Shown here piece after piece: positions 3,025-25,345 of a DNA stretch of 44,904 bases. The stretch's first letter is position 1, and each line of letters opens with the position of its first letter. Under the pieces are notes generated by a model that had not been told where the DNA came from, made no database searches, and was given only the letters and a program-made list of their open reading frames with translations. The position numbers were made by a program, and so were the translations under genes. The stretch is from an uncultured Puniceicoccaceae bacterium (GTDB lineage: Bacteria > Verrucomicrobiota > Verrucomicrobiia > Opitutales > Coraliomargaritaceae). Where the stretch lies: positions 1 to 44,904 of the forward strand of contig CAJWMY010000007.1 in the NCBI GenBank assembly GCA_913044165.1. The letters are read 5' to 3'.

Positions 3025-6000
3025 TTAGAAATAAAAGCCAGCTGAAAAAACAATATTCCTTCCTTCAGTGTATCGGGCATTGTTTAGCCCTGTACTAATT
3101 AAAGTTCTTTCATCAAATATATTATTAAAGTTCATTTGTAAAGTTGTCCAAGGAATACCTTTATTAATTTTACCTGACCATTTAATAAAAAAGTCAGTGT
3201 TAAATTGGTCTTCTAACCAAAAAGTATGCCACTTAGGATTTTTTGTGATAGTCGAATTTCCACCGGAAGCATAATCCTCTACATTGACAGGGATATAATC
3301 TGATTGTCCATCTCCATCTAGATCTTCAAAATAATGACTTAATAGGGCTGCAGACCTATATTTTTGATTTAATCCTAAAGTTGTACCTTTTAGTTTTCCA
3401 TTATTAAACTTATACCTAAAAGTAATGTTTACATTATGATCAGATGTACCTGCAGTAGGCAACCCCTCAAGTATATCTAATGCAGACTGTAATATTGTAG
3501 TTTTAAGATAAGCATATCCTAAGAAAATAGATATATTATCTGTAGGATTTGCATATAAATCTAATTCTATTCCCCTACTCCGAACTTCTTCATCTGCTAC
3601 CCTGAATCCCTTCGGATTAAAGTCCGCTCTTAATCTAGGCAAATTTGTGTCTTCATCAATAATAGTCTGACCGTAACGGTCAGTATATAAATAATAATCA
3701 TAAATCTCAGATGGTAAGTGCCCATTAGAATATGCTTCCGTTCTCATTGATCCATTTGGATTTAGTCCAGGATATATCGATTGTAGCATCGGCCAACTAA
3801 TATTCTGCCTTTGCTCATTTTTTTTATCAATTGTAAATGCCGTAAGTTGTCCATTAAATACACCATCCGGCGTACTTAATTTAAATCCGACTTCTGTGCC
3901 TTCTCCGGTTTCCGGAGGCGTAATGTCACCAAAAACATCAAATTGAAAACCTGTAGGAGAAATTACAGATTTCGAATAGTTCCCAAAAACTGCTAAGCTT
4001 TTTGTCATCCAATATAATCCACCAATTGATGGAGTCCAAACTGGATTCGTTGTAGTTTCTGATTTAATTGCAAGATCTGCCAAACTTGTCCCCCCGCTAA
4101 TTAATTGATTATTTGTATCATCTTGATCCCCGCCTGTAACATAACTAGAGTTATCAACATTTCTTAGCTTAAATCTTGAGTAAAGACTGTCAGTCTCTAT
4201 TAAATCTCTCCTAGCTCCTATTAATGTCCTAAATTTTCCATCAAAGTATGACCCTGAGGCAGCCATCCATAATCCAGTAGAGTCTACAACTGCCTCTGCT
4301 TGGTATAAATTCTTCCAATTCCCTCTATTCAATTCTCCCAAAGGTATTTGATAATTAGTTATCCAATTAGGAGAACCTGCATATTGATGACCCTCCGTAG
4401 TTTCATTTACATAAGCCCTACTACCTTCTAAACCATACAATATGTCATACAAGCTTACTGGATCTGAAACGAGGTCTCTTCTTAAAAATAAATTTAGGTC
4501 TGGACCCCATGCTCTAGCATTCTCACTGACAAGTTCTAACTGAGATCTTGATGCTTCTCTGTGGTCTAAATCAATTCCTAATAAAAACTGCTGATTCCCA
4601 GGAATTAAATCCAAATCCTCATCATATGAAAATGTGATTCTAGCTGACTTATTCGTATCTCTATTCGTAGCTTTTTGCCACTGCCTCTTAATAAATGGCT
4701 CTAAAAACTCAACTGATGAGGACATCATGGAAGGTAAAGGATAATCAGCAAATATAGCATTATTTCCATCTTCATTAAGATAGGCATCATCTTCAGTAAT
4801 AGCATCAATCATGCGGAGTAAATTTGGCTGAATATAATCTCTCCACATCCAAGACAAATCTGCTGATGAATCTAAATCATATTTAAAAAGATCATAAACC
4901 TTAGTTGTATTATCCCAAAATTCTGAGTTAGCTTTATCAGAGTCATCCTGATCTTGAGCAGCATCGCTTATCAAAATCTTATAGATTTGTTTTGCTATTG
5001 AACGCTTTTGTAGCCTTACCTCGTCTGGGATACTATTACCGATAACTAAACCATCTAGTGGTTGCATAGTGCCTCTAGCTGTTAGTTGTGCTAAATCAAC
5101 ACCTGGTTGGGCTAAAGTTATTCGTGTATTTCCATTAAGGCCTTCCATTGTCCAGTTAGGAATAGCATCATAAATTAATTTTTCCCCATCCTCGGTTAAT
5201 ATAAAGTCAGCTAAGTTGATTGAGAAATATTCATTTGCACCAGTTCCCTGATCATCCCACTGCCCATTTCCATTTGCGTCTGTAAATTGTTCCCCAACAT
5301 CCCAACTGCCATTTTCATTAGTATCAGTAAATAATTCCGCTGCCTCATACTTTGAATACTCTGTATTTGTCCAGTTGAATGTTTCATAAGGATCACTAGA
5401 ATTTCTACTTAGACGATCAGCAAAATTTACGGCACCATTACTATAATTAGTCAGCTCATTTCTGTATTTTTCTACATTAACATACCTATCAAGGCGTAAC
5501 ATATTTAGCTGAGCTGTACCCCTAACTGAATCCATTTTTCCATTCGTCAAAACATTGTTAAGGATATCAAATAAAGAAGTACCTCCTTGGTCACTAGTTA
5601 GCAAATAGCCTAGATTAGATTCATAATTTAAATGACTGTTTTCAAGGAAATCTTTAACCCTCGCATAGAACTTACCTAATTCGTAAAGCTTTTCTAAATC
5701 CGTTTCGGCATCATCTAAATTAAGAAAATTATTTACGAAAAATTCTGCCATATGCTCCTTATGAACATCTGCATCTGTTATCATCTTAGTCTTATCAAAA
5801 ACTTGGCTATAATCTATACCTAGACCACTGCCTAAATTAAGAAAATCAGGCTCCCCGTCTGCATCAACATAAGCCTCTCCTTCATCCCATAAACCGTTAC
5901 CATTAGAGTCTATAAATGACTCTTCTGCATCCCATTCATTATCACCATCGATATCATTGAATGCTTCTCCTTCATCCCATTGACCATTGGAATTATCGTC

Positions 6001-9000
6001 TACATAGCCTTCTTCAGCATCCCATTGACCATTTCCAACTTCATCCCTAAATGGTGCTGCAGAATTCAAACCACCCTGCCACGCAACTATGTCTCTAACT
6101 AAAAGACTTCTCACCTCATCTAAGCTATAATCACGGAAACCATCATTGTCTAAATCTTCGAATCTAACCTCACCTTCATCCCATAAATTATTGCCATTGG
6201 TATCTGTGAATGCTTCGCCAACATCCCAAATATCATTTCCATTTCTATCAATAAATAACTCACCCGCATCGTATATGCCACTATCACTTTGATCCTCTTC
6301 TCCTGGATCAAATAATTGATTACCATTTAAATCTATATAATGAAACTCCCCGAGGTCCGTAAATTCTTCTCCATCATCCCAAATGCCATTATTATTAACA
6401 TCAACATAGGACTCTTCGTCGTCCCAAATACCATTCCCATCGATGTCATTGAATGCTTCTCCATCATCCCAAGTACCATTTCCATTAGTATCTGTAAAGG
6501 ATTCTGCAGCATCCCATAAACCATTTCCTCTATCCCAAATGCCATTCTTGCCATCTATAAATGGTTCAGCATCGTCCCAAATCCCATTGTCATTTCTATC
6601 TGTGAAGGATTCACCAAGATCCCAAATGCCATTCTCGTTTGTATCCGTATAAGATTCTGCCATATCCCACCGGCCATTACCAAAGTCATCAAATCCCTCG
6701 CCTTCATCCCATTGACCATTTCCATTTCCCGCGTCAATAAATCCTTCCCTAGAATCCCATTCTCCATTTCCATTAGTATCTGTGAATGCTTCTCCATCAT
6801 CCCAAATACCATTTCCAATATCTGAGAATGGCTCAGCATCGTCCCAAACTCCATTCCAATTCAAATCAGTTAACGCTTCGCCTGGGTCCCATACTCCATT
6901 TCCATTATCATCTGTGAATTCTTCTGCCCCATCATGTACAAAATTCCAATTTGCGTCTGTAAATGATTCTCCTGGATCCCATACTCCGTTTCCTATATCG
7001 ACGAATGATTCTGCTTCATCTCTTGTACCATTTCCATTTCCTGCATCTACAAAATCTTCTCCTGTATCATACATGCCATTCCCGATATCAAAGTAAGGCT
7101 CACCAACATCATAATCCCCATTGAAATTAGAGTCTACGTATGGATCTATTGACTCATCAAAAACTCCATTAGGTAAATCGGCAAATAATTCGCCTTGATC
7201 GTATCTACCATTACGAGTGTCAATAAATATCTCACCAAAATCATACGTATCATTTATTGAATCTTCAAACAAATCAGAATCTAAATCGTAGAATCCATTA
7301 AGGGAATCTGTAAATGCTTCTCCCAAATCATAAACTCCGTTAAATTCATCTAGAAAGTCTTCTCCTTCGTCCCATATACTATTATTATTAATATCAGAAA
7401 GAATTTCAGCAGAATCGAATATGCCATTGCCATTTACATCATTGAAATTCTCACTCGTATTCGAGTCTAAGACATTAAGCATTGCCCATGCGCCATTTGC
7501 ATTAGTCAAATCAACTAAAACACTCTCATAGGGAGATTGTTCTCCCATTAATTTTCGTGGATCCGCATTATAATCATTAATTGAGCGTAATGTTGGAAAT
7601 CTGACTGTCCTTCCATAACCTGAAGAAAATCTCAACTGATTAGCTGACCAGCCAGAAGATAGAGATTCTGAAAGAACATCTTCATATGAAACAGAAATTT
7701 TAAAATCTAAATTATCTGTTATTGCATTTTCATAATCTACTAGGAAAAATTCAAAATCCCTATCGACATATGAGTCAGGCCCAAAACCTGTTCCGCTATT
7801 TGAATAGTCAATATTTTTAAAAAGATTCTTAATATCTTCTCTGGTTTGAATAAAATCAGGAACCAAGGAACCTCCAGGATCACCAGACCAGATTTTAGGG
7901 TGTTGTGACCTAGTCAAATATCCTCCAGTAAATGCTTCATCAGCGTCATTGAATTGCCCATCTCTATTAGCATCTACATAGGACTCTGGAAGATCTAGGT
8001 TTTGATCGGACTTTTGTATTGTGCCCTTCGAATATTCAACATTATGACTAAATTTGCTATTTCCATCTACATCAAAATAATTAGTCGATGGCATCCCATT
8101 GTTGTCATAATCTATAAAACCAAATACACCATTATATGGATAATTATATGCAACATTGTTCTGTCCTTCAATATTTGGATAAATACCTAGAGGGTCTCCT
8201 GATTGAAAGCGATTAACTTTCGAATAATTTGAAACATAATTAAAGAAATCATCATCCATCAATTGAGCAATTTTAGAATCCGCAACTATTCCATTTGGTA
8301 AGCCTGTTGGTCCACTAGCCACCTTAAAAGTTCCTCCAGTTAAGGACCTACTAGCTCTTCCTCCTTCAAAATGGAAACGAAGCCTACTGGAAGGACTTAA
8401 GTTATGCATCAGTTCTAATGTTGCTCCAGTGAATCCCTGATACTTATGATCTAAATCAAATTCTCGATACTTATCTACAAACATGAATCGAGCAGCAGTC
8501 TTATCATTGATAACTCGGTTAATATCAAAAGTAAATTTATTCCAACTCTTGTCACCTATTTCTATAAGAAGACTACCCCTGTCCTTGCTTAATTGAGCAG
8601 TTTTTGAAATAACATTTACCTTCCCTCCTGGATCAGCTTGGCCGTATATTAAACTGTTAGCACCTCTAATAATATCTGAACGACCAACATTATACCAATC
8701 TAATGGTGAATAACGTGGCATAAATTCATATAATTGATTACGGGTTAGAAATCCTCTAAACCTAATCTCTTGGTTATTATAAACATTGCCCTCAGCTTCA
8801 ATACTAGGAACAAAGTTCCCTAAATCTGCCAAAGTTTTCATTCCAAAATCTCTAATCATTTCCTCATTCACAGTGGAAATTGTCATTGGAATATTCTTAG
8901 TTAATTCGTTTGTCCGTGTCCCAGCTAAAGTATTAGCTGAGTAATAGCCCTTATCTTTGTCGTCGGAAACAACAAAGTCAGGCAAGATATAAAAATCTGC

Positions 9001-9096
9001 CTCTACAGATTCCTCAACACCATTAAGTGATAAATTTAGAGTTGCAAAAATTAAGACTAAATGAATGGGGAAATATGAGGGCTTAAAATGTAACAT
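3025..9096 (-). CDS. Giant TonB-dependent outer-membrane receptor with repeat insertion
   Basis: This is an outer-membrane active-transport receptor; xylan fragments are the likely cargo by context only. The chosen ATG at 9096 gives 2023 residues with a signal peptide (hydrophobic run about 8-25). A TTG at 9117 would add 7 residues. A TonB-box-like LPDFVVSDD is followed by a plug domain (about 55-165: NIPMTIS, IRFRGF, RGANSLIYGQADPGGKVNVIS). Barrel strands follow, and the C-terminus ends in Phe (NIVFSAGFYF). Typical receptors have 700-1100 residues. The excess is a region of about 740 residues with roughly 35 Asp/Asn/Gly repeats (about 551-1081), a helix-rich segment (about 1090-1440) and two more repeats near 1252-1289. 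Strands flank the insertion, so an extracellular loop is inferred. No SusD-like partner is present. An EF-hand gene lies upstream on the same strand, 127 bases away. Confidence 0.92.
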   Translation of the reverse strand: MLHFKPSYFPIHLVLIFATLNLSLNGVEESVEADFYILPDFVVSDDKDKGYYSANTLAGTRTNELTKNIPMTISTVNEEMIRDFGMKTLADLGNFVPSIEAEGNVYNNQEIRFRGFLTRNQLYEFMPRYSPLDWYNVGRSDIIRGANSLIYGQADPGGKVNVISKTAQLSKDRGSLLIEIGDKSWNKFTFDINRVINDKTAARFMFVDKYREFDLDHKYQGFTGATLELMHNLSPSSRLRFHFEGGRASRSLTGGTFKVASGPTGLPNGIVADSKIAQLMDDDFFNYVSNYSKVNRFQSGDPLGIYPNIEGQNNVAYNYPYNGVFGFIDYDNNGMPSTNYFDVDGNSKFSHNVEYSKGTIQKSDQNLDLPESYVDANRDGQFNDADEAFTGGYLTRSQHPKIWSGDPGGSLVPDFIQTREDIKNLFKNIDYSNSGTGFGPDSYVDRDFEFFLVDYENAITDNLDFKISVSYEDVLSESLSSGWSANQLRFSSGYGRTVRFPTLRSINDYNADPRKLMGEQSPYESVLVDLTNANGAWAMLNVLDSNTSENFNDVNGNGIFDSAEILSDINNNSIWDEGEDFLDEFNGVYDLGEAFTDSLNGFYDLDSDLFEDSINDTYDFGEIFIDTRNGRYDQGELFADLPNGVFDESIDPYVDSNFNGDYDVGEPYFDIGNGMYDTGEDFVDAGNGNGTRDEAESFVDIGNGVWDPGESFTDANWNFVHDGAEEFTDDNGNGVWDPGEALTDLNWNGVWDDAEPFSDIGNGIWDDGEAFTDTNGNGEWDSREGFIDAGNGNGQWDEGEGFDDFGNGRWDMAESYTDTNENGIWDLGESFTDRNDNGIWDDAEPFIDGKNGIWDRGNGLWDAAESFTDTNGNGTWDDGEAFNDIDGNGIWDDEESYVDVNNNGIWDDGEEFTDLGEFHYIDLNGNQLFDPGEEDQSDSGIYDAGELFIDRNGNDIWDVGEAFTDTNGNNLWDEGEVRFEDLDNDGFRDYSLDEVRSLLVRDIVAWQGGLNSAAPFRDEVGNGQWDAEEGYVDDNSNGQWDEGEAFNDIDGDNEWDAEESFIDSNGNGLWDEGEAYVDADGEPDFLNLGSGLGIDYSQVFDKTKMITDADVHKEHMAEFFVNNFLNLDDAETDLEKLYELGKFYARVKDFLENSHLNYESNLGYLLTSDQGGTSLFDILNNVLTNGKMDSVRGTAQLNMLRLDRYVNVEKYRNELTNYSNGAVNFADRLSRNSSDPYETFNWTNTEYSKYEAAELFTDTNENGSWDVGEQFTDANGNGQWDDQGTGANEYFSINLADFILTEDGEKLIYDAIPNWTMEGLNGNTRITLAQPGVDLAQLTARGTMQPLDGLVIGNSIPDEVRLQKRSIAKQIYKILISDAAQDQDDSDKANSEFWDNTTKVYDLFKYDLDSSADLSWMWRDYIQPNLLRMIDAITEDDAYLNEDGNNAIFADYPLPSMMSSSVEFLEPFIKRQWQKATNRDTNKSARITFSYDEDLDLIPGNQQFLLGIDLDHREASRSQLELVSENARAWGPDLNLFLRRDLVSDPVSLYDILYGLEGSRAYVNETTEGHQYAGSPNWITNYQIPLGELNRGNWKNLYQAEAVVDSTGLWMAASGSYFDGKFRTLIGARRDLIETDSLYSRFKLRNVDNSSYVTGGDQDDTNNQLISGGTSLADLAIKSETTTNPVWTPSIGGLYWMTKSLAVFGNYSKSVISPTGFQFDVFGDITPPETGEGTEVGFKLSTPDGVFNGQLTAFTIDKKNEQRQNISWPMLQSIYPGLNPNGSMRTEAYSNGHLPSEIYDYYLYTDRYGQTIIDEDTNLPRLRADFNPKGFRVADEEVRSRGIELDLYANPTDNISIFLGYAYLKTTILQSALDILEGLPTAGTSDHNVNITFRYKFNNGKLKGTTLGLNQKYRSAALLSHYFEDLDGDGQSDYIPVNVEDYASGGNSTITKNPKWHTFWLEDQFNTDFFIKWSGKINKGIPWTTLQMNFNNIFDERTLISTGLNNARYTEGRNIVFSAGFYF
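5230..5340 (-). repeat. Two outlying copies of the acidic repeat
   Basis: Two more units (DTNENGSWDVGEQFT and DANGNGQWDD) sit about 170 residues beyond the main array, separated from it by the helix-rich segment of the receptor. This suggests that the helical segment was inserted into, or trapped within, an originally continuous array. Confidence 0.8.
5855..7446 (-). repeat. About 35 tandem acidic repeats inside the receptor gene
   Basis: Each unit is 14-16 residues (42-48 bases) with pattern D-x-N-G-N-G-x-W-D-x-G-E-x-F-T/V, for example DTNGNGTWDDGEAFN and DDNGNGVWDPGEALT. Early units (towards 7446) are more divergent and use Tyr or Phe in place of Trp; central and late units are more regular. 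The D-x-N-x-N-G spacing resembles calcium-binding loops of EF-hand, dockerin or thrombospondin-3 type, so calcium binding is inferred. Copies are clearly related at DNA level but diverged, which argues against very recent expansion. Two further units lie at about 5230-5340, and a related D-A-N-R-D-G-Q unit lies near 7930-7985. Confidence 0.9.
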
Positions 9097-9176
9097 AATG
9101 GTATAAAAAGATGACAATTATACAAAATAGAATCATTTTCATCAACCGACAAAAATGACTCTATTGTAATGATTTT

Positions 9177-20458: not shown

Positions 20459-23400
20459 TTACTGAACACTAGCATCATTGTCATCGGCATCATCTCCATT
20501 ACCAACTCCATCACCATCGAAATCATACTGGTTAGTATCATCATTTGGTGCCCAGTCAGCATGATCTAAGATACCGTCTCCATCTTCATCCGTAGTGCTA
20601 GCTGGAGCTGTAGGAACAGGAGCACCTACAATGCTATTGTCTTTAAGAGTAAATGAATCAATTAATACATAATCACCTACAGTTGTAGTGTCATCACCCC
20701 ATGCATCTCCTGCAGGAGTTTTGTGGGTGATTTGAATATTATCGATATTAGTAAATCCAAGACCCTCTGTTAGGTTAGTCCAAGAACTTTCATTATTCTT
20801 TTTATATCTTGAATAGAAGTATCCGGTATCAGTATCTACAACTATTTGAAGGGTCACTCCAACGGATGAACTAAATCCTCCCTGATTGGACCTAACATTT
20901 CCTGTAGATAGAATAACTCCGTCGGATGTATACCATGTTTGTCCCTCGACCATTACATCATCAGCAGCTGGATTCACCCATAGGTTAATCGCTGCACCTT
21001 GTCGATTTGGACTTCCTGTACCATTCTTAAGAATTACTCTGAATCCTTTTTGGGACTGACTGCTTGAGGATGTCCATGATTTACTTAAATCATAGCCGGA
21101 TATAACTGTTTCAAATACTGCAACACCTTCAGTGACATCACTTAATAAGGTCTTAGTCCTAAATTTACTACCGGTATTTGCATCCGAATAATTATTAACC
21201 CCTGCAGGGTCACCATAACCCCAAACAAGATTACCATTGATGACTTTAGCGCCGTTATAATTCCATGAATCAGGATCTGTACCAGCATCAGAACCGTCAG
21301 CGGTTGGAGCTAAACTACCATCATCTAACGTATCTCTTATATCTGTACCATCAGCATCTTCAAATAGGTTGTTTACATATACAGTTGTAGGTACAATTCC
21401 ATTTAAAGGATCATTTGGATAAGGATCAATAAAATCAGGCTGGCCATCTCCATCAGCATCTTGTCCTAGGATAATATCTTGTGCTGCATTTACAGTTCCA
21501 AATTCAACAGTAGCATAATCACTACTATTTGAATCAAGGCGGAATATCATTCCTTTTCCTGTAAAGCTATTTATATTACTTTCACTACCATTGTCCCAAG
21601 CTCTGCTTAAGTTGTAAGACGATATATCAACAATCAATTCTATATTATTAGCGTCAGCATTTGTTATTGGATCATTTGTAATATACTTCCTGAAACTCGG
21701 CTGTGTAGCACTTGGTGCCGTCCATCTCCAGTGCTCCGTATATCCAACATTTAGACTACCATCTTGAAGTCTAGGTCCACCAAAAGTCCACGCACCAGCG
21801 AATAATCCAGTGTTAACTGCCTCTCCAACAAATGTAGAACCTACTTGTTGTTTCATCCAAGTTCCAGTAGTCTCCTCAAAGTCAAAGGAAATAAGTGGAG
21901 AACCATCACCAGTTATCGTTACAGCATCAATTTTAATATTATCACCAGCAATACCAGCAGCTACAGAACCATCTCCCCAAGCATCATATTGATGAGTCTT
22001 TGTACCGAAAGTGAAGTTTTCTATTGAATACAATCCGGCACCGTCTGTTACAAGAGCAGTCCATGTGTCACCTTCATCAGTTGAAAAACCAGATGACCAA
22101 ACTCCCGTTGATAAATTAGCAAGAATTTTAAGCTGCATGCTACCTGACTGAGCTGAACTATTTTCTATAGCAACATCAGCAGCAGTTCCTGATATAGTAC
22201 CAGCAACCTTACTTTGCACCGAAATACTATTGTTGTTATCAGGTGAGGCATCATTAGTAATTCTTATGTAATCCACTTTAACATAGTCTCCTGGTAAGGG
22301 AGCGTTACCAGGATCTCTTTGACCGTTACCATTTTCGTCTGTATATGTTTCACCAGCGACAAAAATTGGTGTGCCATTATGAGTAAAGCTAGAGAAACTG
22401 ATATCCCCATCAATACGTAATTTAACGCTTCTTTCAAAAGCAACAGAACTGACAGTAATAGAATTTTCACCTAGAACTAATGCTTGTGCTGGTCCATTAT
22501 ACCAATTTCCGTTAGCAACAGTTTTTGCTACTGAGTAATTTGCGCCCCCGCCCAAATCCGTAACATTAATTACAAAATTTTGTTCAACGGAACTAGAGGC
22601 TCCTTCTTCAACTTCAGCTGTTAATCTAAAGAATTTACTACCTGATAAGGCATCTGAATGAGGATTAGATGCGCCAGAAATTTCTGACCATGATGATAGA
22701 TCGGATGATTCTTCAAGAACTACAGTTCCAGACCATGCAATATTTGCATTTGATCCATCAGAGGAAATTGAGATTGTTGCGTCTTCCGGAAGTGCACCAG
22801 GTGCAGCAGGTGTAGCTGCTGTGTAAGCGTAAGGCCATGAACCATTTCCAGTGTCAGCAAAATCCCCACTGTTGGAAGGAGTATCCGTGGCTGCGCCAGT
22901 GGTCCCAGCATTAAATTGACCATCTCCATTAGCATCAACATAAGCTTCAGGAGCATTGCCGTCCAATGTCTCATCTCCCCACTCGTTTATGAGAACACCC
23001 TCTGTATCTATAGGCGTCTTTGGGTTTATTTGAATTGAGGCAATTTCATTTAGCCCTGTTCCTCCCAATTCCATATCTTTCCAGGTGTCCGAATTTGAGC
23101 TTTTAGCATGTGTTGACCATTGTCCTGTATTTAAATTTGCTCTTATTTGAATATCAATTTCCCCGGTGTTATTAAGACCAAATGCTTGGGTTATACCATC
23201 AGAAGCAGAAGCAGTTCCACTTCCCCAAGTATTAGTTTGTGTTTTTAACTGATAATCACCAGCAACACCATCACCATCTAAGTCTGTCCCACTTACATGG
23301 GAAAAGAAATTAACAACGGCACCCGAATTGTCAGAACCGCGTAGCATAATTTGAAGACCTTTTCCACCAACAAGGTGAGAATTATCTTCATTCTTCCATT

Positions 23401-25345
23401 GTCCTGATAAATCAGAAGGATTAAATGAAGCCTCTAAAATATATCTTCCAGAAGTTATAGGTTGGTCACCTAAGGTGTCAGCATCAGAGTCTATAGTGAA
23501 AGTTCTAAAAGAATTCCCAGCTACAGGATCACCATAAATACCTGTCCATTTATTTGCACCTGAGTATCCAATATTTAAGTTACCTTCACCATCTGTCTGC
23601 GGACCGCCGAAATTCCAAGTCCCTGTGTATCCTTCACCACTATAGACAGCGCCATCAAATAATGTGGTACCTGCTACATCATCAAAATCAAGCTGGATTA
23701 CTGAACCAGGCACAATCTTATTATCAGTAAATAAATTAATCGCTGCACCTGCATTTGAAGAATTTTGTATTGAAACTTGTAATCCTTTTCCATCGTAACT
23801 TCCGATAGTGCTAGTTGTATCCCACGATTTAGATAAATCATATTCTGCAACTACAACTTCAAAAACAACGATTCCAGTTGCACCTGTTGCTGTTATAACT
23901 CCTGCATCAACCGGCGAACCAAAAGTATAGGTCCTATACGATCCTTCAAAATTATTCACCCATTCATTAGATCCAGCATAACCTACATTAAGATTACCTG
24001 AACCATCAGTTAGGTGGCCTGAAAAATTGAAAGCACCATCAAATTCAGCAATATTTGCAACAACTGAAACTGAAGGATCTAATGTATCATCTGAAGTATC
24101 ATCTGGCGTACCGTTATCATTTGTTTTTCCTAAAATATCAGTTCCTGCAGTATCATCAAAATCGATTACAAAGAAATCGACCTCCGTAGTTACATCTGCG
24201 GTGGCTTGATCAAAACCAGTACCACTCATTACTTTTACTGAATCAATTTTAATGTAGTCACCGTTAGCTGCAACCATATCACTTGAACCCCAAGATTCTA
24301 CCTCTGGTGTTTTAACATTCAATTGTATACGATTAATATCAAAGATACCTTCACCATCAGTTACTAGAGAGTTCCATGGATCGTCTGCTACTTTATAACG
24401 AGATGCCCATAGACCTGTATTTAAATCAGCAATTATCTGCAAAGTTGTTGAACCAGGATTTACTTGGTCAACATCACCAATATCTGAGTTAGCTTCTGTA
24501 GCTAAAAGATTAGAATCATTATTAGCCCCCCAAGCAGAACCAGCGATATTTATATCCGCAGTAGTTTCTGGTACAACTTCAGTTACAGTTATTTCATCAA
24601 TTAAAACAAAATCACTAGCTACACCATCAGTTGGGTTAGCTCCCCAATTATAGCTAGGATTAGAAAAAGATGTATGGATATTAATTTCACTTATGTTGGA
24701 TATCCCCGACCCGTCCTGAACTAAAGGAAGTACTGTAGAACCTTGTTTAGCAGTAGTTGCCCATGTGCTATCATCTAAATTAATCAAAAACTCTAAAACG
24801 ATATCAGTTTCCCCCATTGCAATGTCATAACTATCAACCTGAGCAATTGATACACTTGAGTTAGTATCATCGCTGTATGTAAATAACTCAGATGCTTGAG
24901 CGCCCACATTCCATATTCCTGTAAGACCAACTTTAGCTCCATTTCCGAAACTATCTTTAACAGACAAATGAAAATCTTTCTCCATTATAATAATACCTGC
25001 CGGACTCTTCCAAGCTCCACTTATGTCATGGCTTTTGATTTTTATAGTTACTAGGTGCGTGCCAGAGGAAATAGGGGTTCCTCCTCCTATACTTATTGTA
25101 TCAAGCGTATTATTGCCATTTACATATGGTGCTTTGTATGTCTCAGAGAACCCAATATTTAAAGTCCCGTCAGCTCCAACTCTTAAGGGAGTAGATCCAA
25201 ATGTAGCGGGAATATCTCCATCATTAGAAACTAAGGATGCATTGATTCCAGGAGCATCATTAAACAAAAGAGAGACATCTGCTTTAAGATGTGAAGCTAG
25301 AAATATAGTAGTTAAGAAAACTACATAGAAGGGTAGAATTTTCAT
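20459..25345 (-). CDS. Giant secreted modular protein with at least five LNIGY-type modules
   Basis: This 1628-residue protein has a signal peptide (about 1-22, cleavage after LKA) and no recognisable catalytic domain. At least five related beta-rich modules can be traced by LNIGF/LNVGY/LNIGY/LNVGY/LVWGY. Each sits in a frame of WNFGGP, a G-N-L-N-I-G-Y core, SFRTFT, GKGLQ, AxINLF, IQIxANLNTGxW, IQINxKTP and WGD. The single-module PEP-CTERM protein at 11600-12514 shares this frame. In the middle there is a segment (AWSGTVVLEESSDLSSW to FFRLTAE) resembling the C-terminal modules of secreted Verrucomicrobia enzymes, plus GETYTDENGNGQRDPG, which matches the receptor's acidic repeat. The end is a thrombospondin-3-like calcium-binding stretch (DEDGDGILDHADW, DFDGDGVGNGDD). 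No PEP-CTERM signal is visible, so the attachment route is unknown. It is monocistronic with its own terminator. A surface glycan-binding role is inferred. Confidence 0.85.
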   Translation of the reverse strand: MKILPFYVVFLTTIFLASHLKADVSLLFNDAPGINASLVSNDGDIPATFGSTPLRVGADGTLNIGFSETYKAPYVNGNNTLDTISIGGGTPISSGTHLVTIKIKSHDISGAWKSPAGIIIMEKDFHLSVKDSFGNGAKVGLTGIWNVGAQASELFTYSDDTNSSVSIAQVDSYDIAMGETDIVLEFLINLDDSTWATTAKQGSTVLPLVQDGSGISNISEINIHTSFSNPSYNWGANPTDGVASDFVLIDEITVTEVVPETTADINIAGSAWGANNDSNLLATEANSDIGDVDQVNPGSTTLQIIADLNTGLWASRYKVADDPWNSLVTDGEGIFDINRIQLNVKTPEVESWGSSDMVAANGDYIKIDSVKVMSGTGFDQATADVTTEVDFFVIDFDDTAGTDILGKTNDNGTPDDTSDDTLDPSVSVVANIAEFDGAFNFSGHLTDGSGNLNVGYAGSNEWVNNFEGSYRTYTFGSPVDAGVITATGATGIVVFEVVVAEYDLSKSWDTTSTIGSYDGKGLQVSIQNSSNAGAAINLFTDNKIVPGSVIQLDFDDVAGTTLFDGAVYSGEGYTGTWNFGGPQTDGEGNLNIGYSGANKWTGIYGDPVAGNSFRTFTIDSDADTLGDQPITSGRYILEASFNPSDLSGQWKNEDNSHLVGGKGLQIMLRGSDNSGAVVNFFSHVSGTDLDGDGVAGDYQLKTQTNTWGSGTASASDGITQAFGLNNTGEIDIQIRANLNTGQWSTHAKSSNSDTWKDMELGGTGLNEIASIQINPKTPIDTEGVLINEWGDETLDGNAPEAYVDANGDGQFNAGTTGAATDTPSNSGDFADTGNGSWPYAYTAATPAAPGALPEDATISISSDGSNANIAWSGTVVLEESSDLSSWSEISGASNPHSDALSGSKFFRLTAEVEEGASSSVEQNFVINVTDLGGGANYSVAKTVANGNWYNGPAQALVLGENSITVSSVAFERSVKLRIDGDISFSSFTHNGTPIFVAGETYTDENGNGQRDPGNAPLPGDYVKVDYIRITNDASPDNNNSISVQSKVAGTISGTAADVAIENSSAQSGSMQLKILANLSTGVWSSGFSTDEGDTWTALVTDGAGLYSIENFTFGTKTHQYDAWGDGSVAAGIAGDNIKIDAVTITGDGSPLISFDFEETTGTWMKQQVGSTFVGEAVNTGLFAGAWTFGGPRLQDGSLNVGYTEHWRWTAPSATQPSFRKYITNDPITNADANNIELIVDISSYNLSRAWDNGSESNINSFTGKGMIFRLDSNSSDYATVEFGTVNAAQDIILGQDADGDGQPDFIDPYPNDPLNGIVPTTVYVNNLFEDADGTDIRDTLDDGSLAPTADGSDAGTDPDSWNYNGAKVINGNLVWGYGDPAGVNNYSDANTGSKFRTKTLLSDVTEGVAVFETVISGYDLSKSWTSSSSQSQKGFRVILKNGTGSPNRQGAAINLWVNPAADDVMVEGQTWYTSDGVILSTGNVRSNQGGFSSSVGVTLQIVVDTDTGYFYSRYKKNNESSWTNLTEGLGFTNIDNIQITHKTPAGDAWGDDTTTVGDYVLIDSFTLKDNSIVGAPVPTAPASTTDEDGDGILDHADWAPNDDTNQYDFDGDGVGNGDDADDNDASVQ

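Follow-up and report, generated by a model that had tools for sequence, protein, structure and literature searches.

A long array of EF-hand-type loops in a predicted extracellular loop of a TonB-dependent receptor from an uncultured Puniceicoccaceae bacterium

The window, i.e. the whole 44,904-nucleotide stretch of DNA analysed here, corresponds to contig C7 in a draft genome of 1.26 Mb that comprises 78 contigs, is 86.65% complete and, from its gene content, probably belongs to a marine verrucomicrobial lineage. It carries a gene for a TonB-dependent receptor, whose residues were counted from the TTG start; the numbers are those of an earlier sequence-only reading plus 7, because that reading placed the start at the in-frame ATG. 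The receptor gene and its features were as follows:

3025..9117, minus strand: TonB-dependent receptor open reading frame, 2030 aa (TTG start; ATG at 9096 in frame)
8965..8982, minus strand: putative TonB-box-like PDFVVS, residues 46-51 (read in the sequence)
8623..8898, minus strand: Plug domain PF07715, residues 74-165 (Pfam, 36.8 bits against a cut-off of 23.9)
7756..8340, minus strand: predicted extracellular loop L3, residues 260-454 (strand assignment)
4648..7665, minus strand: predicted extracellular loop L4, residues 485-1490, 1006 aa (strand assignment)
6157..7440, minus strand: main array, 28 units, residues 560-987 (unit count)
6046..6156, minus strand: interruption, residues 988-1024 (putative helical segment LDEVRSLLVRDIVAWQGGLNS, aligning with array-less relatives)
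5866..6045, minus strand: second block, 4 units, residues 1025-1084 (unit count)
4648..5796, minus strand: L4 domain, residues 1108-1490, 383 aa (conserved in G001, G005, G006, G009 and G013)
5245..5325, minus strand: two further units in the L4 domain, residues 1265-1291 (unit count)
3028..4647, minus strand: C-terminal barrel, residues 1491-2030, with predicted strands b8-b22 (resembles siderophore receptors whose structures are solved)

The product had been read as a TonB-dependent receptor of more than usual size, and both points were borne out: PF07715 was matched above its cut-off, the sequence was similar to the solved receptors FpvA, FhuA and FoxA, and the 2030 aa compare with 941-1653 aa in relatives. 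The TonB-siderophore receptor model TIGR01783 matched at 3e-27, with a score (95.4 bits) below the curated cut-off of 223.5, and PF00593 was unmatched in the Pfam scan. At the TonB-box-like site, DF.V[S/T] was kept in all aligned full-length relatives. Similarity to solved receptors was partial; 22 strands could tentatively be assigned by hand, with short turns (1-7 residues) alternating with long loops, and up to b5 the pattern agreed with FhuA-type receptors in the alignment. By strand counting, the array is predicted to lie between b7 and b8, that is in extracellular loop L4, which supports its earlier placement in an extracellular loop; in the cell it is probably exposed on the outside. 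The L4 domain (residues 1108-1490) gave no Pfam or PDB match.

Positions 13867-36791 of the window encode five sulfatases, three GH10 enzymes and one GH52 enzyme, are nearly syntenic in G001 and likely form a sulfated-xylan locus. The gene order was the same in G001 (sugar isomerase, kinase, receptor, GHL6, PEP-CTERM protein, AraC regulator, GH10, MFS, GH52, 1628-aa protein, sulfatase), where the receptor is array-less. The 1628-aa protein (20459-25345, minus strand) consists of several similar modules with an acidic C-terminal end; it had no Pfam match and is 53% conserved in the corresponding locus of G001. A 1722-aa protein of the same genome (L082, G000:C16) contains modules resembling the 1628-aa protein and two array-type units. 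The window receptor is like the siderophore receptors of the FhuA/FpvA/FoxA type (TIGR01783) in its Plug, its tentatively assigned 22-strand barrel and its sequence, but it differs from them in an L4 of 1006 aa that contains, besides the EF-loop array, a 383-aa domain for which no relatives are known, and in its position in a glycan locus, because of which its substrate is probably not a siderophore.

The commonest array unit has 15 residues, D-x-N-G-N-G-x-W-D-x-G-E-x-F-x, and a 14-residue form has one residue fewer before N5. The 34 segments of residues 560-1107 comprised 20 of 15 aa, seven of 14 aa, three of 16 aa and four irregular ones, and 90% of close unit spacings were 14-15 residues. 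Clear units numbered 28 (residues 560-987), four (1025-1084) and two (1265-1291), about 34 in all, so the earlier count of about 35 was right; the array is broken only once, by the segment 988-1024. Its net charge is about -132 over 525 residues.

Most units show the spacing D1-x-N3-x-N5-G6-x-W8-D9-x-x-E12, as in the EF-hand calcium loop (ligands 1, 3, 5, 9 or 7, 12), without the EF-hand helices. At a period of 14-15 only 2-3 residues separate the loops, which leaves no room for such helices, and they were absent from the array in both AlphaFold2 models described below, at low confidence. The strict 12-residue EF-loop pattern was found in 17 array units and twice elsewhere in the receptor protein, compared with a mean of 0.34 and a maximum of 3 in composition shuffles of the array (n=500), and the proposed calcium-loop character of the units was thereby upheld as far as spacing is concerned. 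About half of the array misses the strict pattern, and seven of its units are one residue shorter than the canonical EF loop. L3 contains one strict EF-type loop, DANRDGQFNDAD, at residues 382-393. Searches of array fragments against Pfam (EF-hand, thrombospondin type 3, RTX) gave nothing significant, EF-hand_5 appearing only at E 1.6, and the repeat profile matched no solved structure in the PDB.

Similar units are known from helix-less Dx[DN]xDG loops (PMC3123361), thrombospondin type 3 repeats and PERCAL repeats (PMC3396595), which share the Asp/Asn-rich loop with ligands 1, 3, 5 and 12 and, like the window array, occur as tandem or inserted copies; the window array differs in its shorter period (14-15), its conserved W8 and F14 and its lack of cysteines. 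Calcium binding by Dx[DN]xDG loops is on record across a wide range of structural settings (PMC3123361), and in bacterial peroxidases an inserted short repeat motif, studied as a peptide, binds Ca2+ at 33-79 μM (PMC3396595). Judged by its sequence pattern, the window array probably binds calcium too.

For structure prediction with AlphaFold2, residues 540-1122 alone, without calcium or a real alignment, gave a mean pLDDT of 35, and six units aligned with the array's own units, again without calcium, gave a pLDDT of 52. These values neither support nor exclude a folded repeat. The array may be disordered, since a confident fold was absent; and because neither prediction included calcium or a real alignment, the result that the sequence-only reading had named as counting against it, no folded repeat, may still hold. 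Weak calcium binding without folding is possible in disordered proteins of high charge (PMC8391695).

The array units had a mean identity of 55% in DNA and 42% in protein, and the best pair was 82% identical in DNA. For a codon comparison of the 17 strict units, the ligand and core columns gave pN 0.11, pS 0.90 and pN/pS 0.12, and the other columns pN 0.57, pS 0.63 and pN/pS 0.90; as the units were chosen by motif, the conservation of ligand columns is partly built into this test, which is partly circular. The near-saturation of synonymous sites seen in the same comparison is not built in by that choice. Of the 20 ungapped segments of 15 residues, which were delimited by D1 alone, 18 kept D9 and E12. 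An assembly artefact or chimaera, which might be suspected in a fragmented draft of 78 contigs, was rejected as highly improbable because the reading frame is open across the whole array, the units have diverged in DNA (best pair 82%, mean 55%) and the flanks of the receptor gene are syntenic with relatives; the GC content of the array (0.39) is also near that of the rest of the gene (0.35).

Syntenic orthologues were found in G001, G005 and G006 (same genus) and in G009 (same family), with receptors of 1306-1653 aa. The L4 array was absent from those of G001, G005 and G006, and L4 measured 362-455 aa in relatives against 1006 aa in the window receptor. L3 ranged from 101 to 394 aa across the receptors compared; barrel and plug were conserved while the lengths of L3 and L4 varied strongly. 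A single EF-type loop occurs in G001, G005 and G006 (DSNNDNAITNDE, DSDEDGVATNDE and DLNGDNNISGDE, respectively) near the site of the second block, which lies directly upstream of it in the alignment; the corresponding site is degenerate in the window receptor, and the single loop is a possible founder of the array. About eight units are present in G005, in L3 rather than L4. A second receptor of this genome (L048, G000:C6:7000-16000; 1185 aa) adjoins sulfatases and has two units in its L10, which its G001 orthologue lacks. Since the receptors of G005 (L3) and C6 (L10) carry them, the gain of units has affected more than one loop and more than one receptor.

As in Bacteroidota SusC/SusD pairs, the receptor sits within a polysaccharide utilisation-like locus, but in contrast to those pairs no SusD was found: PF07980 was matched in none of the five genomes of the group, this one included, and was found in the Bacteroides control. 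Verrucomicrobiota MAGs have been reported without SusCD machinery (PMC8857213). The noted absence of a SusD-like partner was therefore correct, and the suggestion that the array replaces that partner was rejected as unsupported, because array-less relatives with the same locus likewise have no SusD.

For the 44 genomes of the family searched, the long array was confined to this receptor; other proteins with units were a secreted protein of about 2800 aa (2-3 units) and a few more. Runs of similar units were also seen in pilin-like proteins of about 730-840 aa from other lineages of the window's phylum (L085-L091). In Neomarinimicrobiota, 84 of 245 genomes had matches at E <= 1e-9, and comparable arrays occurred there in unrelated receptors. 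A Pfam scan of 13 Neomarinimicrobiota array proteins identified a Plug domain in nine and a CHASE2 cyclase in one. Neomarinimicrobiota receptors (L114, L116, L121, L127, L143 and others) have the same type of unit inside a TonB receptor with the 14/15-residue spacing found again, but they belong to other subfamilies and have an N-terminal CarboxypepD_reg-like domain that the window receptor lacks. Long arrays of the same type also stand beside CHASE2 in cyclase-like proteins (L115, L124 and L125; Pfam on L125 only). A peptide-pattern scan of genome contigs returned a single match, a Neomarinimicrobiota receptor with two units. Neither arrays in receptor loops nor repeats in Marinimicrobia were found described in the open-licence literature searched. 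As similar units occur outside outer-membrane receptors, they are not specific to transport. The feature is recurrent in at least two phyla, with which common origin, transfer and convergence are all compatible; the array itself is real, old, constrained at its ligand columns, recurrent and not unique.

We somewhat favour the view of a glycan transporter, a receptor of siderophore-receptor type, with a calcium-stiffened, acidic accessory arm at its mouth. The receptor lies in a locus apparently suited to a sulfated, xylan-like glycan, and its L4 loop, predicted to face outwards, has acquired a long tandem run of helix-less EF loops relative to its orthologues. In a calcium-rich medium (e.g. 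seawater) the array would bind many Ca2+ ions, at most one per unit, and what is a repelling polyanion without them would become an arm, extended and in part ordered, that rises over the mouth of the transporter. Such an arm would be an accessory that core transport does not require, because relatives sharing the locus manage without the array. The order or stiffness of the array, and any benefit from it, are likewise presumed.

Such an arm might instead capture glycan, the Ca2+ held by the array bridging to polysaccharide sulfates and concentrating the glycan at the receptor mouth. Ca2+ bridging of polyanions is established chemistry, the locus has five sulfatases, three GH10 and a GH52 enzyme, and the C6 receptor with its two units also adjoins sulfatases; yet G001 has the same locus with an array-less receptor, and CHASE2 cyclases and pilin-like proteins, for which no glycan would be expected, have arrays as well. 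We hold capture to be unlikely. An array that grew as a near-neutral, minisatellite-like run in an insertion-tolerant loop, disordered and without benefit, would fit its restriction to the receptor of this species among the family genomes searched, the scattered smaller expansions and the lack of a confident fold in the AlphaFold2 models, and Asp/Gly-rich motifs arise easily by slippage (PMC3123361). This origin is doubtful, as the units are old, with saturated synonymous sites, yet keep D1, D9 and E12, and the same 14/15-residue spacing is found in a second phylum.

Bulky loops might also serve as a shield or variable decoy that hides the barrel from phages or bacteriocins. In FhuA, L4 is the loop bound by phage T5. 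The role of FhuA as a phage receptor is documented (PMC11658791). The strong variation of L3 (101-394 aa) and L4 (362-1006 aa) around a conserved barrel and plug agrees with such a role. The ligand columns of the array, however, appear conserved rather than diversified, and we know of no phage of this organism; a shielding function is given little credence here.

The receptor with its array is a variant of known parts, not a new kind of system. On a broader and quite speculative view, which we think improbable, helix-less EF-loop arrays in outward receptor loops would be recurrent, independently acquired, calcium-dependent capture arms with which receptors lacking a SusD lid gather anionic polysaccharides of marine origin. 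Identification of the transporters in the outer membrane of Verrucomicrobiota has been called for (PMC8857213), and the wider question is how large sulfated polysaccharides reach the outer membrane in bacteria without SusC/SusD pairs. A receptor with a removable, probably calcium-binding arm in its main gating loop, whose relatives at the same locus lack the array and which has counterparts with comparable arrays in a second phylum, offers a natural comparison for testing the effect of such loop insertions.
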